Assembly (NCBI GenBank): GCA_009843735.1
Contig: VYCW01000086.1
Span: forward strand, 1 to 36,070
Direction: 5' to 3'
Origin: Acidimicrobiaceae bacterium
GTDB taxonomy: Bacteria > Actinomycetota > Acidimicrobiia > Acidimicrobiales > Aldehydirespiratoraceae
Length of the DNA: 36,070 nucleotides
Shown: piece after piece, positions 490 to 29,066 of the stretch
Layout: every line of letters begins with the position of its first letter
Numbering within the stretch: the first letter of the stretch is position 1
Made by a program: the position numbers and the translations under genes
The notes under the pieces: model-generated
The model's input: only the letters and a program-made list of their open reading frames with translations
Told to the model about the DNA's origin: nothing
Database searches by the model: none

Positions 490-2730
490 CTAACTGACGG
501 TGCTGTTGAGGCCGGCCAGGACCCGGTCGGGGGTGAGGGGGAAGCTGTCGAACCAGACGCCCGTGGCGTCGTGGAGGGCGGCCACCACCGCGGGGGCGTA
601 GGGGATCATTCCCATCTCGGCCATGCCGCGGGCACCCCAGGGACCGTGGGGGTCGGCCAGCTCCAGCACCACACTGTCGACGTGGGTCGGTATGTCGCCG
701 ATGCCGGGCATCAGGTAGGTGCTCAGCCGCATGTGCTGCAAGCGGCCTCCCTCGGAGCGGAGGTTCTCGCTGACCGCGTAGCCGTGGGCCTGGATCACCG
801 CGCCCTCGATCTGGCCCACCACCAGCTTGGGGTTGATCGCCTTGCCGACATCGTGGGCGCTGACCACCCGGTTCACCCGGATGTGGCCGGTGCCGGTGTC
901 AACGGTGAGGTCGACGTGCTGGGCCACGTAGCCGTAGGTGAAGTTCGGCGCGCCGCTGCCGTCGGCGGGGTCGAGCATCTCGGTGGGAGGCGGCACGTAG
1001 CGGAACCGGCCCACCGCGGGGCGCTGGCCGTCGCGCCAGGCCTTCTCGGCCTCCTCGGCCGCGCCGAGAATCGCGTTGCCCGACATCCAGGTGAGCCGGG
1101 ACGCCGAGGCCGAACCCGAGTCGCCGGAGGTGGCCGTGTCGGAGAATCGGCGCTCGATGCGGTCCGTGGGCAGGCCGGTCGCCTCGGCGGCCATCTGCAC
1201 CAGCGCGGTATGGGCGCCCTGGCCCACATCGGCGCCGGCGTGGAACAGCTCGGCCCGGTCGGGCTCGTCGGAGTCCGCGGCGCCGTACAGCACGATCTCT
1301 GCCTCGCAGCGCTCGGGGAAGCCGAACGAGAACCCGACGTTCTTGAACGAGCACGCGAACCCCCGGCCCCGATGCAGCGCCGACGGATCGGCCGGCAGCG
1401 ACGGGAAGGGGCTGAAATCCGCTACCACCTCATCCGCGGTCGAATCCGCCGCCTCGGCGCAGCGTTCGATCACCTCGGGCATGGTCACACCCTCGGGCAT
1501 GGGTGTCTGGGTGACGCCGATGCTGCCCTCTCGCAGTGTGTTGATACGGCGCAGCTCCACCGGGTCCATTCCCAGCGCCTCAGCCAGCTTGTTCATCTGG
1601 CACTCGGCCGCGAACGCGCCCTGGGGCCCGCCGAAGCCCCGGAAGGCGCCGGCCGGTGTGGCATTGGTGTAGACCGCGTAGCTGTCGATCTCGGCGTTGG
1701 GCACCACATACGGGCCCGACTGGTGCATGTGGCAGTTGCCCAGCACCTTGTTGGACGTGAAGTTGTAGGCCCCCGCGTCGAGCCAGGCCGTGCTCTGGAT
1801 CGCGGTGATGCGGCCGTCGCTTCGGGCCCCCCAACGGGTGGTGATGCGGCCCCGGTGGCGCTTGCAGTGGCCGACGATCGACTCCTCGCGGGACCACACC
1901 GTGCCCACCGGCCGGTCGATTCCCCGCTCGTGGAGTCTCACGGCGGCTACGGCCAGCACGATCTGGATGGAGATGTCCTCCCGGCCGCCAAAGGCCCCGC
2001 CGATGGCCGGATAGATCACCCGCACCCGCTCGTCGGGAAGGTCCAGGGCGTGGGCGATCTGCTCCCGGTCCTCGTGGGTCCACTGGCCGGCGACCTCGAC
2101 CGTCACCCGGCCCTCGTCGTCGATGTAGGCCAGCCCGGCCTCGGGCTGGAGATAGGCGTGCTCCTGGTAGGGGAACTCGTAGGTGGACTCCACCACTACA
2201 TCGGCGTCGGCCCAGCCCTGATCCATGTCGCCTTTGCGGATACGCAGCGAGTGGTAGACGTTCGAGGGCTTCCCGTTCTCGGGATGGAGCAGCGTGTCCG
2301 AGGCCAGCGACTCGTCGATGTCGTCCAGCACCGGCAACGGCTCCCACCGCGACTTGATCGCGGCTGCACCGGCCCGGGCCGCCTCGGGCGACTCGGCCAC
2401 CACCAGCGCCAGCCGGTCGGCCTCCCAGCGCGACACGTCGCAGGCGACGGCACTTCGTCCAGTGTGCTCGAGACCCACGAAGACGGGGTGGTCGGCCATC
2501 GTGAGGCCGTACTCGTTCACGGGCACGTCGCCTGAGCCGAGCACGGCCACCACTCCGGCGACGGCCTCGGCCGCGGAGAAGTCGAGCTCGACCAGCCGGG
2601 CGTGGGGCTGGTCGGTGAACACGACCATGGCCCACAGGGCGTCCGCACCGATGCGGTCGCTTCCGTAGGAGGCCTGACCGGTGAGCTTCGCGGGCGCGTC
2701 GATCCGGGCCGCCGACTGGCCGACGCTCAT
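490..2730 (-). CDS. Molybdopterin-binding large subunit, xanthine dehydrogenase/aldehyde oxidase family
   Basis: 746 aa. It carries the Mo cofactor in a three-subunit-type hydroxylase that inserts water-derived oxygen into N-heterocycles or aldehydes. An a/b-hammerhead domain occupies about residues 1-115, followed by the two Mo-cofactor domains. GGAFGGRED (244-252) and AFRGFGGPQ (362-370) are cofactor-loop motifs of the hydroxylase branch; the AYRCSFR loop of form I CO dehydrogenase is absent. GADVGQGAHT is the conserved GQG segment, and the catalytic base is probably Glu705 in ARGMAEMG. The ATG at 2730 overlaps the upstream stop by ATGA; the frame is open up to 2808, but the extra residues lie inside the preceding gene and do not resemble the family. 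It is the catalytic partner of the FAD/FeS protein encoded upstream. Substrate is unknown: xanthine, nicotinate and related heterocycles are all possible. Confidence 0.92.
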   Translation of the reverse strand: MSVGQSAARIDAPAKLTGQASYGSDRIGADALWAMVVFTDQPHARLVELDFSAAEAVAGVVAVLGSGDVPVNEYGLTMADHPVFVGLEHTGRSAVACDVSRWEADRLALVVAESPEAARAGAAAIKSRWEPLPVLDDIDESLASDTLLHPENGKPSNVYHSLRIRKGDMDQGWADADVVVESTYEFPYQEHAYLQPEAGLAYIDDEGRVTVEVAGQWTHEDREQIAHALDLPDERVRVIYPAIGGAFGGREDISIQIVLAVAAVRLHERGIDRPVGTVWSREESIVGHCKRHRGRITTRWGARSDGRITAIQSTAWLDAGAYNFTSNKVLGNCHMHQSGPYVVPNAEIDSYAVYTNATPAGAFRGFGGPQGAFAAECQMNKLAEALGMDPVELRRINTLREGSIGVTQTPMPEGVTMPEVIERCAEAADSTADEVVADFSPFPSLPADPSALHRGRGFACSFKNVGFSFGFPERCEAEIVLYGAADSDEPDRAELFHAGADVGQGAHTALVQMAAEATGLPTDRIERRFSDTATSGDSGSASASRLTWMSGNAILGAAEEAEKAWRDGQRPAVGRFRYVPPPTEMLDPADGSGAPNFTYGYVAQHVDLTVDTGTGHIRVNRVVSAHDVGKAINPKLVVGQIEGAVIQAHGYAVSENLRSEGGRLQHMRLSTYLMPGIGDIPTHVDSVVLELADPHGPWGARGMAEMGMIPYAPAVVAALHDATGVWFDSFPLTPDRVLAGLNSTVS

Positions 2731-4205
2731 GACACCGGCTCCGCCGCGCCCGGAGCCTCTGCACCCATCAGGGCCTCGATGATCGAGTAGTAGCCGGTGC
2801 AGCGGCACAGGTTGCCGGCCAGACCGTGCTCGACCTGGGCTCGGCTCGGGCTGGGCTCCTCAGCCGCGAGCATGACTGAGCTCATCACGAACCCCGGCGT
2901 GCAGAACCCGCACTGCACGCCCTCGCAGTCGGCCAAGGCCTGCTGGACGGGGTGCAGGCCCCCTTCAGGCGGGGCGACCCCCTCCACGGTCGTGATGACC
3001 GCTCCATCGGCGCGGGCCGCGGGCACCAGGCAGGCGAGCACGGCCTGACCATCAAGGTGCACGGTGCAGGCGCCGCACTCGCCCTCGGCACAGCCCTCCT
3101 TCGTTCCGGTCAGCCCCAGGTCGAAGCGCAGCCAGTCGAGCAGGGTGCGGCGGGCCGAATTGGAGGCGCGACGCTCATGCCCGTTGACGGTGGCGCTGAT
3201 GGTGCTGCCGTCGGTGATCTCACGCTGAGGCATCCGACTTGCCCCGGAGGCGCCCGCGGCGCCGTTCGCGGCCACGAGCCGTGGCGGGCGCTCGGGCCAC
3301 GTGTCGGCCTCGGTCCGGGCGGCCAGCGACAGCAGGGCCCGTTTGACCACCACCTCGGTGGTGTGGCTGCGGTACTCCGCGGTGGAGCGCAGGTCGTCTA
3401 TGGGCGTGACCGCGGCCCGGGCCGCGGCCGCGACGTCGGGCGCAGCCTCGGCCAGCGGCCGTCCGGCGGCGATGGCCGCAGCCGTCGGCACCATCTCGAT
3501 GGTGGGACCGACGCTGCCCAGGGCCACCACCAGGCCGGCCACCGTGCCGTCGTCGGCGTCGGTGACCACCGCGGCCGCATGGACCACCGAGATCGCCTGC
3601 GCCTTGCGCAGTCCCAGCTTGACGAAGACCCCGCGGCGGTTGCCGCCGAGAGCACCGAACGCGATCCTGGTAACCAGCTCGCCCGGCTCCAGCGCAGTGG
3701 TGCGGAAACCGGTGAAGAAGTCCTCGATCGGGAGGGTCCGCTCGCCGCCGGCGGCCGACACCAGGGTCACGTCGGCTCCCAGCGCGTACAGCGCCGAGAT
3801 GGTGTCGTTGGCGGGGCTGGCGGTCACGATGTTGCCGACGATGGTGGCCCGGTTGCGGAGCTGCGGCCCCCCGACCTCCAGGCAGGCCTGCGCGAGAGGC
3901 AGTCCCGCCGTGAGCATCCTCTCGGAGGCGACCACGTCCGCGTGGGTGACCAGCGGTCCCAGCTCGATCCGCCCGTCGCGCTCGACGATGGTGTCCAGAC
4001 CGTCGAGGACGCTCAAGTCCACGAGCGTGTCGATCCCGGTGCGGGCCCCGCGGCTGAGCTCCAGCAGCAGATCGGTGCCGCCCGCGATGACCCGGGCCGA
4101 CGGGCCGTGCGCGGCCAGCACCTCCAGAGCGTCTTCCAACGACTCGGGCGCTACATATCGTCTGATCGGATCGGCCCGTCGTTGGGCTTCGTGAAGTTGA
4201 TTCAT
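2727..4205 (-). CDS. FAD-binding and [2Fe-2S] subunits fused in one protein, xanthine dehydrogenase family
   Basis: 492 aa. It passes electrons from the Mo subunit through two [2Fe-2S] clusters to FAD. Residues 14-300 form the CoxM/XdhB-type FAD domain (AGGTDLLLEL at 41-50, ATIVGNIVTASPAND at 120-134). Residues from about 325 form a CoxS/XdhC-type ferredoxin with ligands Cys372, Cys377, Cys380, Cys392 for the plant-type cluster and Cys432, Cys435, Cys467, Cys469 (CGFC, CRC) for the four-helix cluster. The order FAD then FeS is reversed relative to XDH and XdhA, where FeS comes first. The start ATG lies only 8 nt from the tRNA-Pro 3' end and has no Shine-Dalgarno; no other in-frame ATG suits the N-terminus. 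It overlaps the large subunit gene by 4 nt, so the two are translationally coupled. Confidence 0.92.
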   Translation of the reverse strand: MNQLHEAQRRADPIRRYVAPESLEDALEVLAAHGPSARVIAGGTDLLLELSRGARTGIDTLVDLSVLDGLDTIVERDGRIELGPLVTHADVVASERMLTAGLPLAQACLEVGGPQLRNRATIVGNIVTASPANDTISALYALGADVTLVSAAGGERTLPIEDFFTGFRTTALEPGELVTRIAFGALGGNRRGVFVKLGLRKAQAISVVHAAAVVTDADDGTVAGLVVALGSVGPTIEMVPTAAAIAAGRPLAEAAPDVAAAARAAVTPIDDLRSTAEYRSHTTEVVVKRALLSLAARTEADTWPERPPRLVAANGAAGASGASRMPQREITDGSTISATVNGHERRASNSARRTLLDWLRFDLGLTGTKEGCAEGECGACTVHLDGQAVLACLVPAARADGAVITTVEGVAPPEGGLHPVQQALADCEGVQCGFCTPGFVMSSVMLAAEEPSPSRAQVEHGLAGNLCRCTGYYSIIEALMGAEAPGAAEPVS

Positions 4206-8923: not shown

Positions 8924-10282
8924 GTGAATGACGCCACTTTCCTGATCCGGGGCGGCATCGTGCTGCCGCTCGAGGGCCGCAGGATCAGCCACGACCCGGG
9001 CTCGGTCCTCGTGGTGGACGGAGCCATCGCCGCCGTCGGCACCGTCGACGAGGTCGAGGCCCACCCCGCGGCCGCGGCCGCGCCGGTGGTGGACGCCGCC
9101 AACCACGTCGTCATCCCGGGCATGCAAAACGCCCACCTGCACTCGGGGCTGCTGCGGGGCACGGCCGAGTCGCTGGCGCTGTTCGACTGGCTCGAGAACT
9201 ACGTCGATCCCGCCCACCGGGCCCTGACCCCCGAGATCGCCAAGGCCGCCTCCTACATGGCCTACACCGAGTGCCTGCAGGGCGGGACCACGTCGGTGCT
9301 GGACATGTGGCGGTTCATGGAGGGGTCGGCCGAGGCCGCCACCGACATCGGCATCCGGGCCACGCTGGCCCCCTACACCGCCGACCGCTACGACTACTTC
9401 GAGTCTCTGGAGTCCAACCGGCGCCTGCTCGAGACCCACCGCACCGCGGCGGACGGGCGGGTGCGGGCCTGGGTCGGCTTGGAGCACATGCTGTACTGCT
9501 CGGCGGAGATGTTCCGGGAAGCGGCCCTGCTCGCTGAAGAGTTCGACACCGGCATCCACACCCACTCCTCGGAGACTGTCTGGGAGGTTTCGGAGAGCCT
9601 GCGCCTGTTCGGCCGCCGGCCCATCGAGGAGTTCTACAACCGGGGGATCCTGGGAGAGAGCACCGTGGTCGCCCATTGTGTGTGGCTCGACGACCGCGAG
9701 GTCGAGTTGATGGCCCGGACCGGCACGGCTGCCACCCACTGCCCGTGCTCGAACATGAAGCTCGCGTCGGGACCGGCCCGCGTCGGCCACTACCGGTCCT
9801 CGGGCATGACCGTCGGATTGGGCACCGACGGCGAGAAGGAGAACAACAACCTCGACATGCTGGGCGAGATGAAGTTCGCCTCGCTTCTAGCCAAGGTCAG
9901 CACCCTGGACCCGACCGCGGCCGACCCGTGGGACATTCTCGACATGGCCACCCGCGCCGGCGCGGCCGCACTCGGTCTCGATGACGTGACGGGGACCCTG
10001 GAGGTCGGCAAGGCCGCCGACATCGTGATGGTGGACATTGGCGGCCTGCACTTCGTGCCGGTGATGCACGGGAGGCACTTCAACGCCCCCGCCCACCTGG
10101 TGTTCACCGCGAGCGCCCGAGACGTGAGCGACGTCTGGGTTCAGGGCCGCCACTTGGTACAGGACACCGAAGTGACCTCCGTCGACGTGGCTGCGGTGGC
10201 CGCCGCGGCCCAGGCCGCGGCCGAGGAGCTGTTCGAGCGCCGGGAGGCCTTTAAAGGCAATCCCGCCGGCCCCCTTTGGTGA
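8924..10282 (+). CDS. Amidohydrolase of the TrzA/SsnA/guanine deaminase (ATZ/TRZ) group
   Basis: 452 aa. Metal-dependent hydrolase expected to deaminate or dechlorinate a heteroaromatic ring. The N-terminal beta sandwich is followed by a TIM barrel. Metal ligands: His71 and His73 (NAHLHS), His214 (GIHTHSSE), His251 (VAHCVWLDD), Asp302 (GLGTDGEKENNNLDM). SNMKLASG and the NNNLDM stretch are typical of the guanine deaminase/S-adenosylhomocysteine deaminase/atrazine chlorohydrolase group. Start GTG at 8924; a TAAGCT -10-like box lies 9 nt upstream, so the message may have little leader. A Rieske oxygenase follows 25 bp later in the same direction. Substrate unknown; a purine, pterin or triazine-like ring fits the neighbours. 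Confidence 0.88.
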   Translation: MNDATFLIRGGIVLPLEGRRISHDPGSVLVVDGAIAAVGTVDEVEAHPAAAAAPVVDAANHVVIPGMQNAHLHSGLLRGTAESLALFDWLENYVDPAHRALTPEIAKAASYMAYTECLQGGTTSVLDMWRFMEGSAEAATDIGIRATLAPYTADRYDYFESLESNRRLLETHRTAADGRVRAWVGLEHMLYCSAEMFREAALLAEEFDTGIHTHSSETVWEVSESLRLFGRRPIEEFYNRGILGESTVVAHCVWLDDREVELMARTGTAATHCPCSNMKLASGPARVGHYRSSGMTVGLGTDGEKENNNLDMLGEMKFASLLAKVSTLDPTAADPWDILDMATRAGAAALGLDDVTGTLEVGKAADIVMVDIGGLHFVPVMHGRHFNAPAHLVFTASARDVSDVWVQGRHLVQDTEVTSVDVAAVAAAAQAAAEELFERREAFKGNPAGPLW

Positions 10283-10307: not shown

Positions 10308-11312
10308 ATGACCCTGACCGACTCCATACGCGACGAATGGTTCCCGGTGGCGCGCGCCGGCGACCTGGAAGCGGGCCGGTGGCTGCCTTTCGAGCTGCTC
10401 GACGAGCGGTGGGTGCTGGCCTGCGACAACGCCGGCCGGGTCGAGGTGTTCGTGGACACCTGTCCCCACCGGGGCGCCCGGATCACGCTTGGCGACTTCG
10501 ACGGGGAGCGGCTGCGATGCGGCTATCACGGCTGGCAGTTCGACATCGACGGCCACTGCATCCACCAGCCGGCCCACCCGGACCGCCGGCCCGCCGGCAT
10601 CCGTCTGCGCACGGCTGAGGTACGGGCCGGGTACGGGTTCTGGTGGGTCTGCGCGGGGGACCGGCCCCGGAACCTGCCCCTGGCGCCGGACCATGCCGCC
10701 CACCCGGAGCGGACCGTGTGGCTCGACCCGGTGAGGGTCGAGTCGTCGGGGCCCCGCGTCATCGAGAACTTCCTGGATCTGGCCCACTTCCCGTTCGTGC
10801 ACGAGGGGTACCTGGGCCAGGAGCCCTACACCGAGGTGATCGGCTACGGGGTCGAGGCCGATGACCAGGAGCTGCGGTTGACCGATTGCATGTTCTGGCA
10901 GCCCGATCCGGGACCGGCCGCGTCGGGCGGTGGGCCGGTCCGCTACCAGTACTCGGTGTCACATCCGTACGCGGCCACCCTCACCAAGGTGCCTTCGGGC
11001 AGCGATGGTGACGGCGACAGTGACGGGGTCGGGGGCTTCACCATCCTGATCGTGGCCAGCCCCGTCACCGAGACCGCCTGTGTCGTGTGGCGCTCGACCG
11101 TCGTAGACGACACCGGCGCCGACCTGGACGCCCAGCGGGCCTTCAACGAGCTGATCTTCTCCCAGGACATCGATGTGGTGGAGTCCCAGCGGCCCCGGCG
11201 GCTGCCGACCGACCCGAGGATGGAGTCGCACCAGGCGGCCGACGCGGGCAGCCTCGCCTACCGCAGATGGCTGCGCGCCCGAGGCATCCGGTATGGCACG
11301 ATGAGCGTGTGA
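10308..11312 (+). CDS. Rieske non-heme iron oxygenase, VanA/NdmA-like
   Basis: 334 aa. The Rieske [2Fe-2S] ligands are Cys52, His54 (CPHRGA) and Cys71, His74 (CGYHGW). The catalytic domain holds the mononuclear iron site His160 and His165 with the bridging Asp157 (ENFLDLAHFPFVH) and the later Asp in SQDIDVVESQRP. Length and the VVESQRP signature place it with monooxygenase-type members (vanillate and dicamba O-demethylases, caffeine N-demethylases) rather than dioxygenases with beta subunits. No ferredoxin reductase gene is in the window. A Ser/Gly/Asp-rich loop (SGSDGDGDSDGVGG) near residue 230 is unusual. Its stop overlaps the following deaminase start by GTGA. Confidence 0.9.
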   Translation: MTLTDSIRDEWFPVARAGDLEAGRWLPFELLDERWVLACDNAGRVEVFVDTCPHRGARITLGDFDGERLRCGYHGWQFDIDGHCIHQPAHPDRRPAGIRLRTAEVRAGYGFWWVCAGDRPRNLPLAPDHAAHPERTVWLDPVRVESSGPRVIENFLDLAHFPFVHEGYLGQEPYTEVIGYGVEADDQELRLTDCMFWQPDPGPAASGGGPVRYQYSVSHPYAATLTKVPSGSDGDGDSDGVGGFTILIVASPVTETACVVWRSTVVDDTGADLDAQRAFNELIFSQDIDVVESQRPRRLPTDPRMESHQAADAGSLAYRRWLRARGIRYGTMSV

Positions 11313-12364
11313 CTGATCCCTCCAGACCCGTGGCGTCGGTCGACGCGGCACTGGCCGCTTTCGTGAGGGGGCTGCCCAAGGCCGAGCTGCACCTGCACAT
11401 CGAGGGGACTCTCGAGCCGGAGATGCTCTTCGAACTGGCCGGCCGCAACGGCGTCGATCTCCCCTTCGCGGACGAGGCCGCGGTGCGGGCCGCCTACTCC
11501 TTCACCGACCTCCAGTCGTTCCTGGACATCTACTACCAGGGCGCGGCGGTGCTGCAGACCACCCAGGACTTCTACGACCTGATGGCCGCCTACCTGCAGC
11601 GGGCCCATGCCGACGGGGTCAGGCGGGCGGAGATGTTCTTCGATCCGCAGACCCACACCGAGCGCGGTGTCGGCTTCGACGTGTTCATGGAGGGCTTCAC
11701 CTCGGCCATGTCCGACGCCGAGGCCGCCACGGGGATCTCGTCCGACCTGATCATGTGCTTCCTGCGGCACCTGCCCGGCGAGGCAGCCTGCGACACGTTC
11801 CGAGCCGCCGAGGGATGGCTCGACCACATCGTCGGCGTCGGCTTGGACAGCTCGGAAGTGGACCACCCGCCCGAGGAGTTCGCCGAGGCCTACGCCATGG
11901 CCCGCGCCGCAGGGCTGCGCCCGGTGGCCCATGCCGGCGAGGAGGGCCCTCCCTCGTACATCACCGGCGCTCTCGACGCTCTCGGCGCTGAGCGCATCGA
12001 CCACGGCGTGCGCTGCGAGGAGGATCCCGCTCTGGTGGCGCGGCTGGTGGAGGCTCAGACGCCGCTGACGGTTTGCCCTCTGTCGAACCTGGCGTTGTGC
12101 GTGGTGGACGACCTGGCCGGCCACAACTTCAAGCGCCTGCTCGACGCCGGTCTGAAGGTCACCATCAACTCCGACGACCCCGCCTACTTCGGGGGTTACG
12201 TGGCCGACAACTACCTGGCCGCGGCCGCGGCCCTCGGCCTGACCCGCGGCGAGCTGGCCCAGTGCGCCCGCAACAGCCTCGAGGCCAGCTTCGCTCCCGC
12301 CGACCAGAAGCGGGCCTGGCTGTCCGACCTGGACGCCTTCGGCGATGATGACGGTGGGGACTGA
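11309..12364 (+). CDS. Adenosine deaminase superfamily, adenine deaminase (Aah1/PA0148) type
   Basis: 351 aa. Hydrolytic deaminase with Zn ligands His28 and His30 in KAELHLHIEG, the HAGEE segment (His and catalytic Glu), the RIDHG block with catalytic His, and SDDPAYFGGYVADNY with the Zn-binding Asp. TVCPLSN is the usual loop. The DPAYFGGY sequence is that of adenine aminohydrolases; adenosine deaminases read DDP-G there. N6-substituted adenine or a related 6-aminopurine is therefore more likely than adenosine (inference). The GTG at 11309 overlaps the Rieske stop (GTGA), and the next gene starts 1 nt after its stop, so deaminase and both oxygenase-like genes are co-translated. Confidence 0.88.
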   Translation: MTDPSRPVASVDAALAAFVRGLPKAELHLHIEGTLEPEMLFELAGRNGVDLPFADEAAVRAAYSFTDLQSFLDIYYQGAAVLQTTQDFYDLMAAYLQRAHADGVRRAEMFFDPQTHTERGVGFDVFMEGFTSAMSDAEAATGISSDLIMCFLRHLPGEAACDTFRAAEGWLDHIVGVGLDSSEVDHPPEEFAEAYAMARAAGLRPVAHAGEEGPPSYITGALDALGAERIDHGVRCEEDPALVARLVEAQTPLTVCPLSNLALCVVDDLAGHNFKRLLDAGLKVTINSDDPAYFGGYVADNYLAAAAALGLTRGELAQCARNSLEASFAPADQKRAWLSDLDAFGDDDGGD

Positions 12365-12365
12365 G

Positions 12366-13223
12366 ATGCAGGTCTGTTCCGACCCGGTGATCCTCAACGA
12401 GTGGCACGCGGTCGCAGATCTGGACGAGATCCGCCGCAGCGACCTCCACACTCTGCTGCTCGGCGAGCGGTTGCGCTGCTGGATCGATACCGGCGGTACG
12501 GCCCGGGCCGAGACAGGATCGGGCCGGGAGCTGGAGGTCCGCACCGACTACGGGTACCTGTGGACCACCCTGGGAGAGCCCGAGGGAGGCGTGTTCGACA
12601 TCCCCGAGGCTCACGAGGACGACCGGAGAACCCTCAACGCCGTCACCGTGGGAATCGAGGTATCGGCCCCGCGGGCGGTGGAGAACTTCCTGGACATGGC
12701 TCACTTCCCGTACGTGCATGCGGGCGTGCTCGGCGAGGAGCCCCGCACCGAGGTGGCCGAGTACCGGGTCGAGGAGCGCGACGGCGAACTCTGGGCCTTC
12801 GACTGCCTCTTCTACCAGCCTCGTGCCGCCGCGGCCTCCTCGCAGGCGGTGCTGGCCTCCTACGTCTACCGGGTGCCGCATCCCTACGGCGCCATGCTCT
12901 ACAAGTCGTCGCCCACCGATGTCGAGAGGATGGACGCCATCGGGATCTTCATCCATCCCCTCACCGAGACCCGGATCCGCGCCCATCTATTCATCAGCGT
13001 GCTCGACGACGTGAGCACCAACGGGGAGATCCGGCGGTTCCAGCAGGGCGTGATCGCCCAGGACAAGCCGATCCTCGAGAACCAGCACCCCAAGCTCCTG
13101 CCGCTGGATCCCCGGGCGGAGACGCCGATCCGGGCCGACCGCTCGGCCATCGTCTACCGGCGCTGGCTGAGCCGCCTCGGGGTGACCTACGGCGTGATCC
13201 CGGCAGCCGGAGCGGCGAGTTGA
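12366..13223 (+). CDS. Rieske-oxygenase-like catalytic protein lacking the Rieske cluster
   Basis: 285 aa. The C-terminal catalytic domain of a VanA/NdmA-type oxygenase is clear: ENFLDMAHFPYVHAG with Asp110, His113 and His118, and AQDKPILENQ carrying the third iron-ligand Asp. The N-terminus aligns with the start of the neighbouring oxygenase (EWHAVADLDEI; LLLGERLRCWI) and resumes at LEVRTDYGYLWTTLGE, but the block with CxH and CxxH is missing, so the loss is internal, not an end truncation. Precedent: NdmC of the caffeine-degrading Pseudomonas putida CBB5 lacks its Rieske domain and is served by an extra one on NdmD. ATG at 12366 has GGTGGGG upstream; an ATG at 12345 would sit inside the deaminase gene. 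Electrons could come from the 10308-11312 product (inference). Confidence 0.85.
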   Translation: MQVCSDPVILNEWHAVADLDEIRRSDLHTLLLGERLRCWIDTGGTARAETGSGRELEVRTDYGYLWTTLGEPEGGVFDIPEAHEDDRRTLNAVTVGIEVSAPRAVENFLDMAHFPYVHAGVLGEEPRTEVAEYRVEERDGELWAFDCLFYQPRAAAASSQAVLASYVYRVPHPYGAMLYKSSPTDVERMDAIGIFIHPLTETRIRAHLFISVLDDVSTNGEIRRFQQGVIAQDKPILENQHPKLLPLDPRAETPIRADRSAIVYRRWLSRLGVTYGVIPAAGAAS

Positions 13224-13239
13224 CGAACGAACACGCCAC

Positions 13240-24326: not shown

Positions 24327-25004
24327 TCAGGCTGACTTCTGGGCGGTCTCGTTCCCTGCCACTGCGATCGCCTCGGCCAGCGCGGCTATGGCATGAGCCC
24401 TGTGCATGTGGCTCTCGTCGAGGAAGGTGTCGACGTCCCTGTCGGCGATCGCTTGCATCATCCGGTGATGCTGGTCGTGCACTAGCCGCCGGTTCTCGGG
24501 CGACATCAGGTAGCGCACGCGATAGCGGTCCGAGGAGTCCCACAGGATTCGCAGGACCCGCACCAGCTGGGGCATCTCCGCCGCCTCGAACACGGTGAAG
24601 TGGAACCGCCGGTTCACCGCCGTCAGGGAGACGACGTCTTCCTGCACCTCGTCCATCTCGTGGACGATCTCTCGCAGGCGGACCACGGTGTCGGCCCCCA
24701 AGCGCGGGATTGCCCGGCTGACCGCCTCCGTCTCCAGGAGTTCCCGGATCCGGTAGATGTCGATGAGGTCGTCCATGTCGAGGGTCGCCACCACATAGCC
24801 CCGATGGGGCCGGTAGTGGACATGCCCCTCGCCTTCGAGGATCCTCAGCGCTTCCCGCACCGGTACGGCCGACACCCCGAGCTCCTCGCCCAGAGCGTCC
24901 GGGCGGATGGACTCTCCCGGCGCCAGCCGGCCGTCCAGGAGCTGCTGGCGTATCTCCGCCAGCACGGCCTCCTGGGCGGTCTTGGGCCTTTCAAATGAGC
25001 TCAC
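24327..25004 (-). CDS. GntR-family regulator, FadR/FCD subgroup
   Basis: 225 aa. A winged helix (about 8-75) contains LGEELGVSAVPVREALRILEGEG and YRPHRGYVV. The C-terminal FCD helical bundle (about 80-215) carries the metal/ligand-site residues Asn131, His135, His179 and His199 (or neighbouring His). Effectors of this group are usually carboxylic acids. The start is GTG at 25004. It diverges from the ABC binding-protein gene across 92 bp that contain a strong promoter, so it most likely controls the importer and itself. Confidence 0.93.
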   Translation of the reverse strand: MSSFERPKTAQEAVLAEIRQQLLDGRLAPGESIRPDALGEELGVSAVPVREALRILEGEGHVHYRPHRGYVVATLDMDDLIDIYRIRELLETEAVSRAIPRLGADTVVRLREIVHEMDEVQEDVVSLTAVNRRFHFTVFEAAEMPQLVRVLRILWDSSDRYRVRYLMSPENRRLVHDQHHRMMQAIADRDVDTFLDESHMHRAHAIAALAEAIAVAGNETAQKSA

Positions 25005-25034
25005 AACGCCCCATCATGCCACAAGTGGGCGGAG

Positions 25035-25063
25035 TTGACATCCGATTGATGATTTCCTATAGA
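25035..25063 (+). promoter_or_regulatory. Sigma-70-type promoter of the ABC importer operon
   Basis: A perfect -35 TTGACA (25035-25040), a 17-bp spacer and -10 TATAGA (25058-25063). Transcription would begin near 25070, giving a leader of about 27 nt that includes the GGAGGGAG Shine-Dalgarno of the binding-protein gene. The GntR gene reads away from the same 92-bp region, so its operator is expected to overlap. A CCAC-AA-GTGG inverted repeat at 25019-25028 is one candidate but is short. Confidence 0.75.
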
Positions 25064-25096
25064 GTTTTGCCGTCTCAACGGCGGAGGGAGACCATC

Positions 25097-26347
25097 ATGA
25101 ACGAGACGAGAAATCGGACCAGACGACTGCGCTGGCTCGCGGTGCCGTTCGCAGCAGCCCTGCTGTTCACAGCCTGCGGCGACGACGAAGAGGCGGAGCC
25201 GGCCGCTCCGGCGCCGGCACCGGCCGAGGAGGCTGCTCCGGCACCCGATCCAGAGCCTGCCCCCGAGTCGGTCGACGAGGAAGAGGGCCACGACCACGAC
25301 GAGGACGACGGCCACGACCACGACGAGGAAGAGGGCCACGACCACGACGAGGAAGAGGGCCACGACGAGGAAGAGGGCCACGACGAGGACGAGCCTGAGC
25401 CCGAGCCCACGGTCCCGCCCGAGCCGATCGACATCCGCCTCGTGACATGGGGCGCAGCCAAGTTCATCGACTTCATCGACCTGTACGTGGCCGAGGAGAA
25501 CGGCTACTTCGCTGAGGCCGGAGTGACTCTTGAGCAGCTCCCGGGCGCGGGCGCAGGCGACGCGGTTCGCCAGCTGGTGGCCGGCAACGCCGACATAGCT
25601 ATGGCCGACGCACTGTCCGGCTTCTTCGCGACCATCGCGGGAGCCGACCTTGAAGGCATCTACTGCCCGTACACGCAGAACTGGATGACCATGCTGGTCA
25701 ACACCGCTTCCGGCGTCGAGTCGCCGGAGGACCTGCGGGGCAAGACGGTGGCGGTCACGTCGCAGGCCTCAACCAGCAAGTGGTACGCCGCCCTGCTGCT
25801 CGCCGACAACGGCATCACCGAGGAGGACGTGACTTTCGCGGCCACCGGCATCGCCTTCGGTGAGGCTCTGCTCGGCGGGCAGGCCCAGGCCGCGTCTACG
25901 TGGGGCTCGATCAACTGGGCCCTCCTCGAGGCCGGCGGCATCCCCGAGGACCAGGTCGGCGACTACGAGATCTGGCAGTACGACCAGGTGCCCGGTCCCA
26001 ACGACGTGTACTTCGCCAACCGGAGCTGGGTCGACGAGAACTCCGACGGTGTCCAGCGGTTCATCGACGCCCTGGAGAAGGCCAAGCTGTGGATCGAGGA
26101 GAACCCCGAGGCCGCGGCCGAGATCGGTTCCCGCCATGCGGTCGGTGCCGACAACATGGACCGGAACCTCGCGGTGATCGACTACCGGATCCAGATGCAG
26201 AACAACGGCCCCGGCGTCTCCGAGAACGGCATGGGCTGGTGCGACGTGGCCACCATCCAGGACGTGGCCGACCAGGCCACTGCACTGGGCATCCTGCCGG
26301 ACTCGGCCGATGCCTCAGCGGTGATCTCCAACCGGTTCATCAACTAA
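25097..26347 (+). CDS. ABC transporter substrate-binding lipoprotein (SsuA/THI5-like) with a His/Asp/Glu-rich linker
   Basis: 416 aa. The signal peptide ends in lipobox FTAC with lipidated Cys27. Residues 28-59 are Ala/Pro/Glu-rich; residues 60-98 repeat EEEGHDHD-like units with eight His; a short EPEPEP stretch precedes the folded domain. From about 110 a type II binding fold of the nitrate/sulfonate/pyrimidine-precursor group follows: LVTWGAAKFIDFIDLYVAEE, YFAEAGVTLEQLPGAG, DLRGKTVAVTSQAST and FANRSWVDEN. Two Cys (YCPYT; GWCDV) could form a disulphide. ATG at 25097 has GGAGGGAG; the frame upstream to 24995 crosses the promoter and is not used. His-rich linkers are typical of zinc-binding proteins such as ZnuA, not this group. 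Confidence 0.93.
   Translation: MNETRNRTRRLRWLAVPFAAALLFTACGDDEEAEPAAPAPAPAEEAAPAPDPEPAPESVDEEEGHDHDEDDGHDHDEEEGHDHDEEEGHDEEEGHDEDEPEPEPTVPPEPIDIRLVTWGAAKFIDFIDLYVAEENGYFAEAGVTLEQLPGAGAGDAVRQLVAGNADIAMADALSGFFATIAGADLEGIYCPYTQNWMTMLVNTASGVESPEDLRGKTVAVTSQASTSKWYAALLLADNGITEEDVTFAATGIAFGEALLGGQAQAASTWGSINWALLEAGGIPEDQVGDYEIWQYDQVPGPNDVYFANRSWVDENSDGVQRFIDALEKAKLWIEENPEAAAEIGSRHAVGADNMDRNLAVIDYRIQMQNNGPGVSENGMGWCDVATIQDVADQATALGILPDSADASAVISNRFIN
25274..25390 (+). repeat. Tandem repeat coding the His/Asp/Glu tract
   Basis: Degenerate 24-bp units (GAG GAA GAG GGC CAC GAC CAC GAC type), three full copies and two shortened 18-bp copies, encode residues 60-98 of the binding protein. Codons are nearly identical between copies, which indicates recent expansion by slippage. 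Confidence 0.85.
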
Positions 26348-26358
26348 TCGACAACTAG

Positions 26359-26398
26359 CCTGAACCCGGCGGGCACCCGGTGCCCGTCGGGGTTCAGG
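26359..26398 (+). promoter_or_regulatory. Long intercistronic hairpin overlapping the ATPase Shine-Dalgarno
   Basis: Arms cctgaacccggcgggcac and gtgcccgtcggggttcagg pair over about 18 bp with one bulge and one G-U, closing a 3-nt loop. There is no T-run, so full termination is unlikely. The 3' arm ends at 26398 and overlaps the AGGGG (26396-26400) serving the GTG at 26407. It probably stabilises the binding-protein mRNA and lowers ATPase translation, a common way of making more binding protein than membrane components. Confidence 0.65.
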
Positions 26399-26406
26399 GG
26401 CAGAGC

Positions 26407-27189
26407 GTGAACGACCAGACCGGAGAGCTCTCGGGGCGCGGCCACATCGAGATCGACGGCCTCACCAAGACCTTCGCGTCCGACGCCGGAGACATCACGG
26501 CCATCGAGGGCATCGACTTCGACATCGCGCCCCGCGAGTTCGTCGGCATCGTCGGGCCCAGCGGCTGCGGCAAGAGCACGCTGCTGCGATGCGTGGGCGG
26601 CCTCATAGCGCCCTCCACCGGGGAGGTGCGCATCGGCGGTGAGGTCGTCACGACCCCCGACCGGCGCATCGGCTACGTCTTCCAGAAGGCGGTGCTGCTG
26701 CCGTGGCGCAGGGTCCTCGACAATGTGATGCTGCCGTTCGAGGTGATGCGCCGGCCCACCGAAGAGGACAGGCGCAAGGCGCACGAAGTGCTGGAGATGG
26801 TGGGTCTCGCGGAGTACCTGCAGCACCGGCCGGGCGAGTTGTCGGGAGGCATGCAGCAGCGGGTGTCGGTGGCCCGGGCCCTGGCGGTGGAGCCCTCAAT
26901 CCTGTTGATGGACGAGCCCTTCGGCGCCCTCGACGCCCAGACCCGGGATCTCATGAACCTGGAGCTCCTCCGCATCTGGCAGGAGTCCCAGACCACGGTG
27001 GTGTTCGTGACCCACGACATCGGCGAGGCGCTGTTCCTGTCGGATCGGGTGATGGTGATGTCGGCCCGTCCCGGGAGCGTCCAGGACGTGATCGACGTGG
27101 ATCTGGAGCGGCCCCGCACCTTCGAGCAGGTCGAGGGGGACGAGCGGTTCTGGTCGCTGCGCCAGCGGATCAGGGATCAGCTCGAATGA
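26407..27189 (+). CDS. ABC transporter ATP-binding protein (SsuB/TauB-like)
   Basis: 260 aa. Walker A GPSGCGKST (50-58), Q-loop Gln93 in YVFQKAVLLPWR, signature LSGGMQQR (145-152), Walker B LLMDEP with catalytic Glu170, D-loop GALD and switch His203 in THDIGEA. LLPWR after the Q-loop is typical of the nitrate/sulfonate/taurine importers, matching the binding protein. Start GTG 26407 was chosen for the AGGGG at 7-nt spacing; an in-frame GTG at 26380 lies inside the hairpin loop. It energises the permease encoded next. Confidence 0.95.
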   Translation: MNDQTGELSGRGHIEIDGLTKTFASDAGDITAIEGIDFDIAPREFVGIVGPSGCGKSTLLRCVGGLIAPSTGEVRIGGEVVTTPDRRIGYVFQKAVLLPWRRVLDNVMLPFEVMRRPTEEDRRKAHEVLEMVGLAEYLQHRPGELSGGMQQRVSVARALAVEPSILLMDEPFGALDAQTRDLMNLELLRIWQESQTTVVFVTHDIGEALFLSDRVMVMSARPGSVQDVIDVDLERPRTFEQVEGDERFWSLRQRIRDQLE

Positions 27190-27229
27190 GGCGGCCCCCG
27201 GGCATGAGAACGCCTTTGGGGAAGGCGAC

Positions 27230-28045
27230 ATGAAGCGGCTGCTGAAGGCGGCGCGCTCCGAGGCGTGGATCGGCAGGGTGCTGGTGCTGCTGTCGGCCGT
27301 CGTGCTGATCGTGGTCTGGCACCTGTGGGCCAGGACCAACTCCCCGCTGGTCCTACCCGAGCCGGGTCCGGTGCTGAGCCGTCTGATCGACTACGTGGGG
27401 TCCGGTAGGGCCAACCCTCACATCTGGATCACCGTGCAGGAGATCGTGCTGGGATTCGCGCTGGGCGGTGTGGCCGGCATCGGCCTGGGCACCCTGGCCT
27501 CCGAGTTCGGGATCGCCCGGCGCGTGATCATGCCCTACGTCATCATCACCCAGGCGCTGCCCAAGTTCGCGCTGGCACCGATCCTGGTGATCTGGTTCGG
27601 CTTCGGCATGACTCCCAAGGTGATCATCGCGGCCCTCATCGCCTTCTTCCCGCTCCTGGAGAACACCTACCTCGGGCTCACAACGGCACCGGCGGAGATG
27701 CTGGAGCTGTTCCGTGCGTTGCGAGCCTCCCGGTGGACGACCCTGACCAAATGCAAGGCCCTGCACGCAGTCCCCGCGGTGTTCAGCGGGCTGCGGGTCG
27801 CGCTCATGCTGGCGCTGGTGGGCGCAGTGGTGGCCGAGTACGTCGGCGCCAACAAGGGTCTCGGGGCGCTGATCATCGTGTCGCAGGGAACGCTCGACAC
27901 CGAACTGATGTTCGTGGCCTTCGTGCAGCTGACCGTGCTCGGGCTGCTGCTCGACAAGCTTCACGGTCTCGTGTACCGGCTGGTGATGCGCCGGCTGTAC
28001 GGCTCGATCGGCGCCGAGATGCGGGCCGCGGGCGTGTCGGTGTGA
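27230..28045 (+). CDS. ABC transporter permease (SsuC-like)
   Basis: 271 aa with about six membrane segments: VLVLLSAVVLIVVWHLW near the N-terminus, GFALGGVAGIGLGTLA, ALAPILVIWFGFGMTPKVIIAALIA and others. The coupling-helix EAA-type loop reads EMLELFRALRASRWTTLTKCKALHAVPAVFSGLRVAL in outline, with the conserved Ala/Gly positions. It completes a three-gene type I importer with the two preceding genes. ATG at 27230 follows GGGAAGG. The flavin monooxygenase gene lies 34 bp downstream. Confidence 0.95.
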   Translation: MKRLLKAARSEAWIGRVLVLLSAVVLIVVWHLWARTNSPLVLPEPGPVLSRLIDYVGSGRANPHIWITVQEIVLGFALGGVAGIGLGTLASEFGIARRVIMPYVIITQALPKFALAPILVIWFGFGMTPKVIIAALIAFFPLLENTYLGLTTAPAEMLELFRALRASRWTTLTKCKALHAVPAVFSGLRVALMLALVGAVVAEYVGANKGLGALIIVSQGTLDTELMFVAFVQLTVLGLLLDKLHGLVYRLVMRRLYGSIGAEMRAAGVSV

Positions 28046-28059
28046 TGCCGGTGGGCAGA

Positions 28060-28073
28060 CCTGCGGGAGCAGG
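28060..28073 (+). promoter_or_regulatory. Short hairpin with GGGA tetraloop covering the flavin enzyme Shine-Dalgarno
   Basis: cctgc-ggga-gcagg is a perfect 5-bp stem closed by a GNRA-type tetraloop. The AGGA that serves the ATG at 28080 starts in its 3' arm. The stem is short, so the effect on translation is uncertain. Confidence 0.3.
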
Positions 28074-28079
28074 AACCTG

Positions 28080-29066
28080 ATGGACTTCGGCTGGCGGGTG
28101 CCCTCCTACGCCGGGCCGCTCACCACCCCCGCCTCGGCGCGTGCCCTGGTCCCGTACTTCACCCGGGTGGAGGAGGCCGGCTTCTCCGGGCTGTGGGTGA
28201 TCGACCACTTGCTGGTGGCGCCCAACGTGTACTCGGTGGCCTGGCAGGATCCCATGATCACCCTGGCCGTGGCCGCGGGGGCCACCGAGCGGATCCGCCT
28301 GGGAACGGCCATCCTTTGCGCGCCGTTCCGCCATCCGACCATCATCGCCAAGGAGGTCGCCAGCCTCGACAGCCTCTCGGGAGGCGGCCGGGTGGTTCTG
28401 GGCGTCGGCACGGGCCACGACGACATGGAGTTCGCGTCGGTGGGGGTGCCGCGGCGCGAGCGCGGTCGCCGCACCGACGAGGCCTTGGAGCTGATCGGGC
28501 TGCTGCTGAGCACCGACGACGTGAGCTTCGAGGGCACCTACTACCGCGTCGACGACGGGACCACCCTCTACCCGCGGCCCGAGCAGCCGATCCCGGTCTG
28601 GATCGGCGGCGGCTCCCAGGTACACGTCGTCGACAACGTGGACACACCCAACATGGCACCGGCCGTGCTGGCCCGGATCGGCCGCCACGACGGCTGGATC
28701 TGCCGGTCCAGCGGCACCAGCCCCGAGATCGTGGCCGGCGACATCGCGTCAGTGCGCGGCTACCTGGAGGCCCGACGGGACATGAGCACCTTCACCATGT
28801 CGCACGCTCAGTGGCTGCACATCGTCGACTCGGCCGACCGCGACAACGTGATCGCCGAGCAGCTCGCCGCCTACCGGACGGTGATGGACGTCAAGCGCTC
28901 CGACGCCGACCTGCAGAACGCCTATCTGTTCGGCACCATCGACGAGATGACGGCGCGCATCAGGGCCCTGGCCGAGGCCGGGATCGACCATCTCATCATC
29001 AACCCGCTGACCGACGATCCCCGTCAGATCGACCTATTCGCCAACAAGATCATGGCCAACGTCTGA
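28080..29066 (+). CDS. LLM-class flavin-dependent oxidoreductase, probably F420- or FMN-using
   Basis: 328 aa TIM barrel. FSGLWVIDHLL, IRLGTAILCAPFRHP, LSGGGRVVLGVGTGHDDMEF and PVWIGGGSQ are luciferase-like/F420-dependent family motifs. VPSYAG at the N-terminus lies at the flavin site. It differs clearly from the 14676 homologue, which has the WTVEHHFLEE loop. Ring oxidation or reduction of the imported compound is a reasonable role, since importer and enamidase genes flank it in the same direction. ATG at 28080. Confidence 0.87.
   Translation: MDFGWRVPSYAGPLTTPASARALVPYFTRVEEAGFSGLWVIDHLLVAPNVYSVAWQDPMITLAVAAGATERIRLGTAILCAPFRHPTIIAKEVASLDSLSGGGRVVLGVGTGHDDMEFASVGVPRRERGRRTDEALELIGLLLSTDDVSFEGTYYRVDDGTTLYPRPEQPIPVWIGGGSQVHVVDNVDTPNMAPAVLARIGRHDGWICRSSGTSPEIVAGDIASVRGYLEARRDMSTFTMSHAQWLHIVDSADRDNVIAEQLAAYRTVMDVKRSDADLQNAYLFGTIDEMTARIRALAEAGIDHLIINPLTDDPRQIDLFANKIMANV

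Follow-up and report, generated by a model that had tools for sequence, protein, structure and literature searches.

A Rieske-less oxygenase of the NdmC family in an Acidimicrobiaceae genome and its probable supply by an NdmD-type protein encoded elsewhere

Introduction

Rieske oxygenases normally hold the electron relay and the catalytic iron in one chain. In the chlorophyllide a oxygenase of Micromonas (MpCAO), a eukaryotic enzyme with another substrate and without a reductase fusion, two chains carry separate centres. The account in PMC9615114 describes it as one oxygenase divided over two chains. The system closest to the gene studied here is the caffeine ndm system of Pseudomonas putida CBB5, in which NdmCDE is the N7-demethylase of 7-methylxanthine. 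As described in PMC4408171, NdmC is without a Rieske cluster and NdmD has an extra one, NdmD serves NdmA, NdmB and NdmC, and NdmE is a GST-like protein needed for solubility and activity; the same account reports homologous ndm clusters in 18 further organisms. In CBB5, NdmCDE is reported to form a tight complex that requires the GST. NdmA and NdmB are listed in PMC12445004 as an alpha3alpha'3 heterohexamer.

Here we describe the gene of a Rieske-less oxygenase (RL) in a 36,070-nt stretch of contig VYCW01000086.1 from an Acidimicrobiaceae bacterium (assembly GCA_009843735.1), hereafter the window, and we compare the candidate donors of its electrons.

Results

RL is a Rieske oxygenase without the cluster-binding block

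The RL reading frame is unbroken from an ATG at 12366 to a stop at 13221-13223, and a second in-frame ATG lies at 12345. In a Pfam profile search, the product matched VanA_C (73.7 bits against a cut-off of 23.5) but not a Rieske domain, whereas the complete oxygenase of the window, P0002 (Table 1), has a Rieske domain besides VanA_C. BLASTP aligned RL with P0002 from RL residue 54 on (39% identity over 233 residues, E 1e-46). For the N-terminal part, similarity shows only in profile comparison (probability 99.1%, E 1.5e-18); there, the first 87 residues align with the Rieske domains of complete oxygenases. A joint alignment with complete oxygenases gave one internal gap of about 50 columns, by which CxH...CxxH is removed and the flanking strands are kept. 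These results confirm that RL is an intact Rieske oxygenase from which only the cluster-binding block of about 50 residues is missing.

Table 1. Positions of RL, its conserved sites and its neighbours in the window.
Feature	Position	Strand	Basis or remark
Deaminase-type amidohydrolase (TRZ/ATZ, guanine-deaminase-like)	8924..10282	+	GTG start; Amidohydro_1 195 bits
Complete Rieske oxygenase (P0002)	10308..11312	+	Rieske and VanA_C, both motifs; solved relatives SxtT, SxtDIOX, NdmA closest
Adenosine-deaminase family protein (ADA)	11309..12364	+	NF006850 505 bits, cut-off 419; start GTG 11309 assumed
Rieske-less oxygenase (RL), NdmC family, 285 aa	12366..13223	+	VanA_C, ndmC-position likeness, AlphaFold, SxtT fold
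RL junction, CxH...CxxH cluster block missing (about 50 residues in all)	12504..12509	+	Approximate, residues 47/48; joint alignment
RL D110 codon, taken as bridging aspartate	12693..12695	+	D in 88/88
RL H113 codon, taken as iron ligand	12702..12704	+	H in 87/88
RL H118 codon, taken as iron ligand	12717..12719	+	H in 88/88
RL D233 codon, taken as iron ligand	13062..13064	+	D in 88/88
16-bp gap, RL to opposing acyl-CoA dehydrogenase gene	13224..13239	.	Holds NdmD-like and GST genes in the orthologous G009 and G014 loci

The 2-His-1-carboxylate iron site and the bridging Asp of the Rieske oxygenase superfamily (VanA_C type) are present in RL, and the superfamily's own Rieske [2Fe-2S] motif, CxH-CxxH, is absent. 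We aligned 88 RL-family sequences, namely 87 of the 104 available RL rows and the window protein. N107, D110, H118, Q232, D233 and E238 were identical in all 88, and H113 was found in 87. The RL sets did not include a 157-aa fragment of L098 (30% identity), and two smaller alignment sets of 21 and 17 sequences were picked by hand. By analogy with naphthalene dioxygenase, we take D110 to be the bridging aspartate and H113, H118 and D233 to be the iron ligands. At a separate locus, L176:5116-6000, the first iron-binding His of a Rieske-less protein is replaced by Arg; NdmD-like and GST genes lie beside its gene.

The first-pass annotation had called this protein Rieske-less and had aligned both of its ends with P0002, and both points held; the iron ligands in homologues, which it proposed as a check, are conserved with one exception at H113. 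It named Asp110, His113, His118 and a later Asp as the iron site; the residues were right, but D110 is assigned here to the bridge and not to the ligands. Its reading of RL as an oxygenase with a kept iron site that needs an external electron donor, here a Rieske donor, is supported.

The AlphaFold model of RL (pLDDT 88.5) superimposed on SxtT with a TM-score of 0.88 and an rmsd of 2.9 A. Among PDB sequences, SxtT and SxtDIOX were closest to RL, followed by NdmA and NdmB. SxtT and SxtDIOX (GxtA), the solved structures nearest to RL and the nearest in sequence to P0002, differ from RL in being complete oxygenases with their own Rieske domain. A phage origin of RL was considered and rejected: among 50,697 phage records there were 2 matches, which covered 75% of the protein with 25% identity.

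RL belongs to the NdmC family and lies in a deaminase gene string

Over 280 aligned positions, RL shares 43% identity with the ndmC-position protein of a plasmid cluster in P. putida MT178, a figure that refers to this protein and not to CBB5 NdmC itself. The layout of the MT178 cluster resembles that of the caffeine ndm genes; its neighbouring oxygenase is NdmB-like (6icl, E 9.5e-236) and its reductase bears the NdmD ferredoxin (6icm_D, E 4.7e-47). The ndm-like cluster and the identity to its ndmC-position protein place RL, as judged from sequence, in the NdmC family, to which it is similar over the full length and with which it shares the missing Rieske motif. Like NdmC of CBB5, RL has an oxygenase fold without a cluster and keeps the iron triad, and the gene order C-D-E of NdmCDE is common to many RL relatives. 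RL differs from NdmC in that no ndmD or ndmE neighbour was found next to it in the window; it is accompanied instead by deaminase, amidohydrolase and complete oxygenase genes.

The ADA gene sits between the two oxygenase genes, overlapping P0002 by 4 nt and ending 1 nt short of RL. For the amidohydrolase, all NCBIfam matches were below their cut-offs (among the matches listed, 25 of 41). Downstream, the RL stop ends at 13223 and the opposing acyl-CoA dehydrogenase gene starts from 13240. No Rieske gene besides P0002 was found in the window. Elsewhere in the window, genes of the xanthine dehydrogenase-type molybdenum hydroxylases, below equivalog cut-offs, occupy 493-4205 on the minus strand, and genes of an NMT1/THI5-type ABC transporter followed by a luciferase-like monooxygenase gene lie at 24995-29066 on the plus strand.

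An NdmD-like gene accompanies RL in relatives

Directly after many RL genes, we found ORFs of about 590 residues with Rieske, FNR-type and plant-type ferredoxin (Fer2) domains, usually with a GST gene next. One such NdmD-like protein, encoded on contig C131 of the window genome (G000), is 37% identical to MT178 NdmD along its length; like NdmD, it has Rieske and ferredoxin domains, and its FNR-type part is diverged.

GTDB genomes were scanned for relatives, and of the 548 confirmed we used the best 80 loci, which span Acidimicrobiia, Granulosicoccaceae, Rhizobiales, Pseudonocardia, Nocardioides, a planctomycete and others. In these best 80 of 548 loci, an NdmD-like gene lay within 500 bp downstream of 67 of the 109 RL matches; another RL copy or piece came first after 24, a match called complete oxygenase followed 4 (one of them, L216, a contig-end fragment), and none of these followed the other 14. 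An NdmD-like gene was present in the stretch of 99/109 RL matches, and in many of the Rhizobiales loci two RL genes stand ahead of one NdmD-like gene.

The co-occurrence of the genes was then counted in raw numbers of genomes, the relatedness of the genomes being ignored. In the order, scored with the best 6 candidates per genome for RL and the best 3 for NdmD-like genes, RL was present in 23/397 genomes (E<=1e-50) and the NdmD-like gene in 22/397 (E<=1e-100), all 22 among the 23 with RL. At these cut-offs, none of the 374 genomes of the order without RL had an NdmD-like gene. The one RL genome without an NdmD-like call, G273, has a 35% NdmD match at a contig edge. In the family, RL was counted by hand in 18 of 51 genomes (full-length matches with >=50% identity, among the matches listed). 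The NdmD-like gene was present in 17 of these 18 and in 0/33 others (E<=1e-40); 11 of the 18 had an orthologue of the complete oxygenase (E<=1e-60).

Two loci showed other arrangements. A 5-kb stretch of G341, L116:5313-10463, contains three Rieske-less genes together with the gene of one complete oxygenase, and NdmD-like genes are found elsewhere in this genome. On a plasmid of Rhizobium brockwellii (L149:8339-9828), the gene of a 216-aa Rieske protein precedes a Rieske-less gene and a GST gene. This Rieske protein leaves no room for a reductase part and shows that RL can have a separate Rieske protein beside it.

The adjoining NdmD gene appears to be lost in the window lineage

Window-type RL (82-100% identity) was found in 13 of the 16 genomes of the genus, with open frames in all 13. 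Pairwise dN/dS, by a simple counting method, was 0.06-0.25 in all comparisons, indicating purifying selection. An NdmD-like gene was present in 12/13 of these genomes, missing in G006, and was directly downstream of window-type RL in only two, G009 and G014. In both loci, the NdmD-like gene and a GST gene follow RL in this order, ahead of the same acyl-CoA dehydrogenase gene that opposes RL in the window. The RL of G009, with its adjoining NdmD, is 89% identical to that of the window.

In the NdmD tree, the genes from G009 and G014 group as sister to the NdmD gene beside RL in G016, a genome of the neighbouring genus (support 98/93). This mirrors the RL tree, in which the RL of G016 is sister to the window-type RL clade (95/86). 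The NdmD alignment comprised 54 of the 63 listed NdmD-like rows and L151; nine ORFs (L103:1844, L115, L119, L120, L122, L123, L128, L139, L143), incomplete or missed by the ferredoxin-motif filter, were outside the tree. Given that the NdmD tree mirrors the RL tree and given the gene order in G009 and G014, the adjacency is best read as ancestral and lost. Trees and gene order thus suggest that window-type RL once had cognate NdmD and NdmE genes beside it, which were lost in this lineage.

The window genome has two NdmD-like genes, on contigs C131 and C25, which belong to other clades. Each has a GST gene beside it, as in the NdmD-NdmE arrangement, but on contigs other than that of RL. The two GSTs are 64-65% identical to an S. 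medicae GST (BLAST; CBB5 NdmE was not the reference). Since the window MAG (3.4 Mb) is 84.6% complete, a cognate NdmD could also lie in the missing sequence. An earlier idea, that the genome is devoid of an NdmD-type reductase, was dropped. It came from a PF00175 profile search of the window genome, which gave no match; this null was a false negative and uninformative because the NdmD-like genes carry a diverged domain of this type (27.2 bits in L102 and 19.5 bits in the C131 copy, cut-off 22).

The complete oxygenase as an alternative donor

The order P0002-ADA-RL was conserved in 8/13 window-type loci (the window and seven others), and an orthologue of P0002 (E<=1e-60) was found in 9/13 window-type genomes. 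It was missing from G006, G007, G010 and G015, which are 86-96% complete. An obligate pair of RL and complete oxygenase was rejected on this co-occurrence. In the donor model of the first-pass annotation, spelled out, RL would join P0002 in a mixed trimer or hexamer, and the Rieske cluster of P0002 would feed the RL iron across the interface. The tight string of both genes, the conserved order, the invariant D110, the absence of NdmD beside RL in the window lineage and the heterohexamer listed for NdmA/NdmB in PMC12445004 are in its favour. However, the orthologue is missing from 4/13 window-type genomes and from 7/18 RL-bearing family genomes, compared with 1/18 for the NdmD-like gene; the G009 RL has remained close to the window RL although NdmD adjoins it; and complete and Rieske-less N-demethylase genes normally cluster in the ndm cluster as well. 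We regard such a complex as quite unlikely.

The other RL copies of the genus bear on the same question. Counted by hand among the matches listed, the genus has 45 RL genes versus 21 NdmD-like genes (a reductase-only match, G014:C85, was excluded, and split matches in G010 and G014 were taken as one gene each), and the window genome has at least four RL genes among the matches listed. For 42 of the 45 copies, all but G008:C1 and two of G011, the gene order could be placed: 11/42 were followed by NdmD, 11/42 by a complete oxygenase and 20/42 by neither. The copies before a complete oxygenase are of a second Rieske-less type (L084:1175-3077 and ten equivalent genus loci), with 41-226 bp between the BLAST matches. 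Their position directly before a complete oxygenase again speaks for a mixed complex, but 9 of these 11 pairs have an NdmD-like gene within 2 kb, and the contigs with the remaining two pairs are 3.3 and 4.0 kb long. We find it hardly probable that RL, its cognate NdmD-NdmE lost, has switched donors and now uses the Rieske cluster of P0002 within a mixed trimer of the two. If this were true, one oxygenase subunit would share its cluster with a second one whose substrate position differs.

The NdmC/NdmD precedent drawn by the first-pass annotation is supported by the likeness to the MT178 protein, and its pairing of RL with P0002 in part: the genes share one tight string but are not direct neighbours, because the ADA gene intervenes, and the order recurs in most window-type loci while the orthologue is missing from four genomes. 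Its choice of P0002 as the likely donor is not supported, given the frequent NdmD-like gene directly after RL and the co-occurrence in the order, and with it the claim of a solution different from NdmC/NdmD is left unsupported.

G006 and the remaining alternatives

G006 has an intact RL, no NdmD-like gene (E<=1e-40) and no complete-oxygenase orthologue. The THL and ACAD neighbours of its RL are truncated in the assembly, and some of its 11 Rieske domains are at contig edges. One edge fragment, on C119, scored 67.0 bits with P0002 versus 58.9 bits with NdmD; being slightly better with P0002, it does not rescue the NdmD model for G006. Since G006 has neither partner, both donor models explain it poorly; the locus appears degraded, and the Rieske fragments at contig edges are no clear pieces of NdmD.

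RL might instead draw electrons from another Rieske protein of the genome, for example a small Rieske ferredoxin. The window genome has 44 matches to Rieske domains (8 and 9 in the sister genomes G001 and G013), the R. brockwellii locus pairs a Rieske-less gene with a small Rieske protein, and such a donor would cover G006 as well. However, the NdmD-like gene tracks RL closely in the order, and P0002 is the only Rieske gene in the window, which makes this source of electrons unlikely.

The reading of RL as a relic, or as a subunit that has no catalytic role and receives no electrons, is very improbable. It is favoured by the lack of an adjoining NdmD in 11/13 window-type loci and by the degraded look of the G006 locus, but the low dN/dS in every comparison, the conserved iron ligands and the open frames argue otherwise.

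The middle region of NdmD resembles a shrunken catalytic domain

The stretch between the Rieske and reductase domains matched no Pfam family in the three NdmD-like proteins scanned; an example of the region is L151:8855-9709. In profile comparisons, it matched the RL catalytic domain with 69.7% probability (E 4.2e-5) and, with a second alignment, 92.3% (E 5.7e-7), compared with only 6.1 and 18.7% for complete oxygenases and 0.1-0.4% for reversed controls. The iron motif was found in 0/17 and 0/55 sequences of the middle region, and the Rieske motif was present in all. The Rieske and middle part had an AlphaFold pLDDT of 89.8, and Foldseek aligned it along whole oxygenase subunits (SxtT/GxtA chains, 277-308 columns) with a TM-score of 0.61-0.65 but an rmsd of 6.2-10.5 A. 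Profiles, motifs and predicted fold give moderate support to the view that this part of NdmD is a shrunken catalytic domain without iron. If so, NdmC with its iron site and NdmD with its cluster would each lack what the other keeps, and the two may be complementary remnants of an oxygenase subunit. The split would then be comparable in principle, by analogy, with the two-chain chlorophyllide a oxygenase of Micromonas as described in PMC9615114. A literature search found no paper pairing NdmD with 'vestigial' (among the matches listed, 10 of 113).

Discussion

We consider it reasonably likely that RL is an N-demethylase, probably for a methylated purine, which is fed in trans by a shared NdmD-type hub. 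An oxygenase subunit would have lost its cluster-binding lobe and kept the mononuclear iron site, giving rise to RL. Electrons would pass from NADH to flavin, to the plant-type [2Fe-2S] and to the Rieske [2Fe-2S], all inside the NdmD-like protein, and from its Rieske cluster across an oxygenase-like subunit interface and through Asp110 to the RL iron, at which the N-methyl group of a purine-like substrate would be oxidised off with O2. A GST-like NdmE may hold the RL:NdmD complex together. In the window genome, the paralogous NdmD-GST pairs on C131 and C25 would serve RL in trans, and other Rieske-less and complete oxygenases as well.

Gene neighbours and remote homology point to a substrate of the purine type. 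The string in the window contains deaminase and amidohydrolase genes, and xanthine-dehydrogenase-like genes are present at 493-4205. A P. putida relative has nucleobase symporter and urate hydroxylase genes beside it, and in rhizobia there are BMP-type ABC transporters with amidohydrolase or GST genes. Against a purine substrate, SxtT and SxtDIOX outscore NdmA for both RL and P0002. Our literature searches returned nothing usable on a methylated-purine role of such enzymes or on their occurrence in Acidimicrobiia or sponge symbionts.

Regarding the electron route, RL copies outnumber NdmD-like genes about 2 to 1 in the genus; an NdmD donor would therefore have to be shared by several RL proteins, just as CBB5 NdmD supplies NdmA, NdmB and NdmC. 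Against such a hub, NdmD adjoins only 11/42 placed RL copies in the window's own genus, and the tight CBB5 NdmCDE complex with its required GST, as described for that strain, argues against an easy exchange of partners. Even so, we consider an NdmD-GST pair acting in trans the likelier donor for RL than P0002.

The Rieske-less half of oxygenases is widespread, and its gene can part from the gene of its donor. The window lineage would thereby offer a natural experiment on the specificity required of a Rieske donor, and NdmC and NdmD, as possible complementary remnants of an oxygenase subunit, provide a testable picture.
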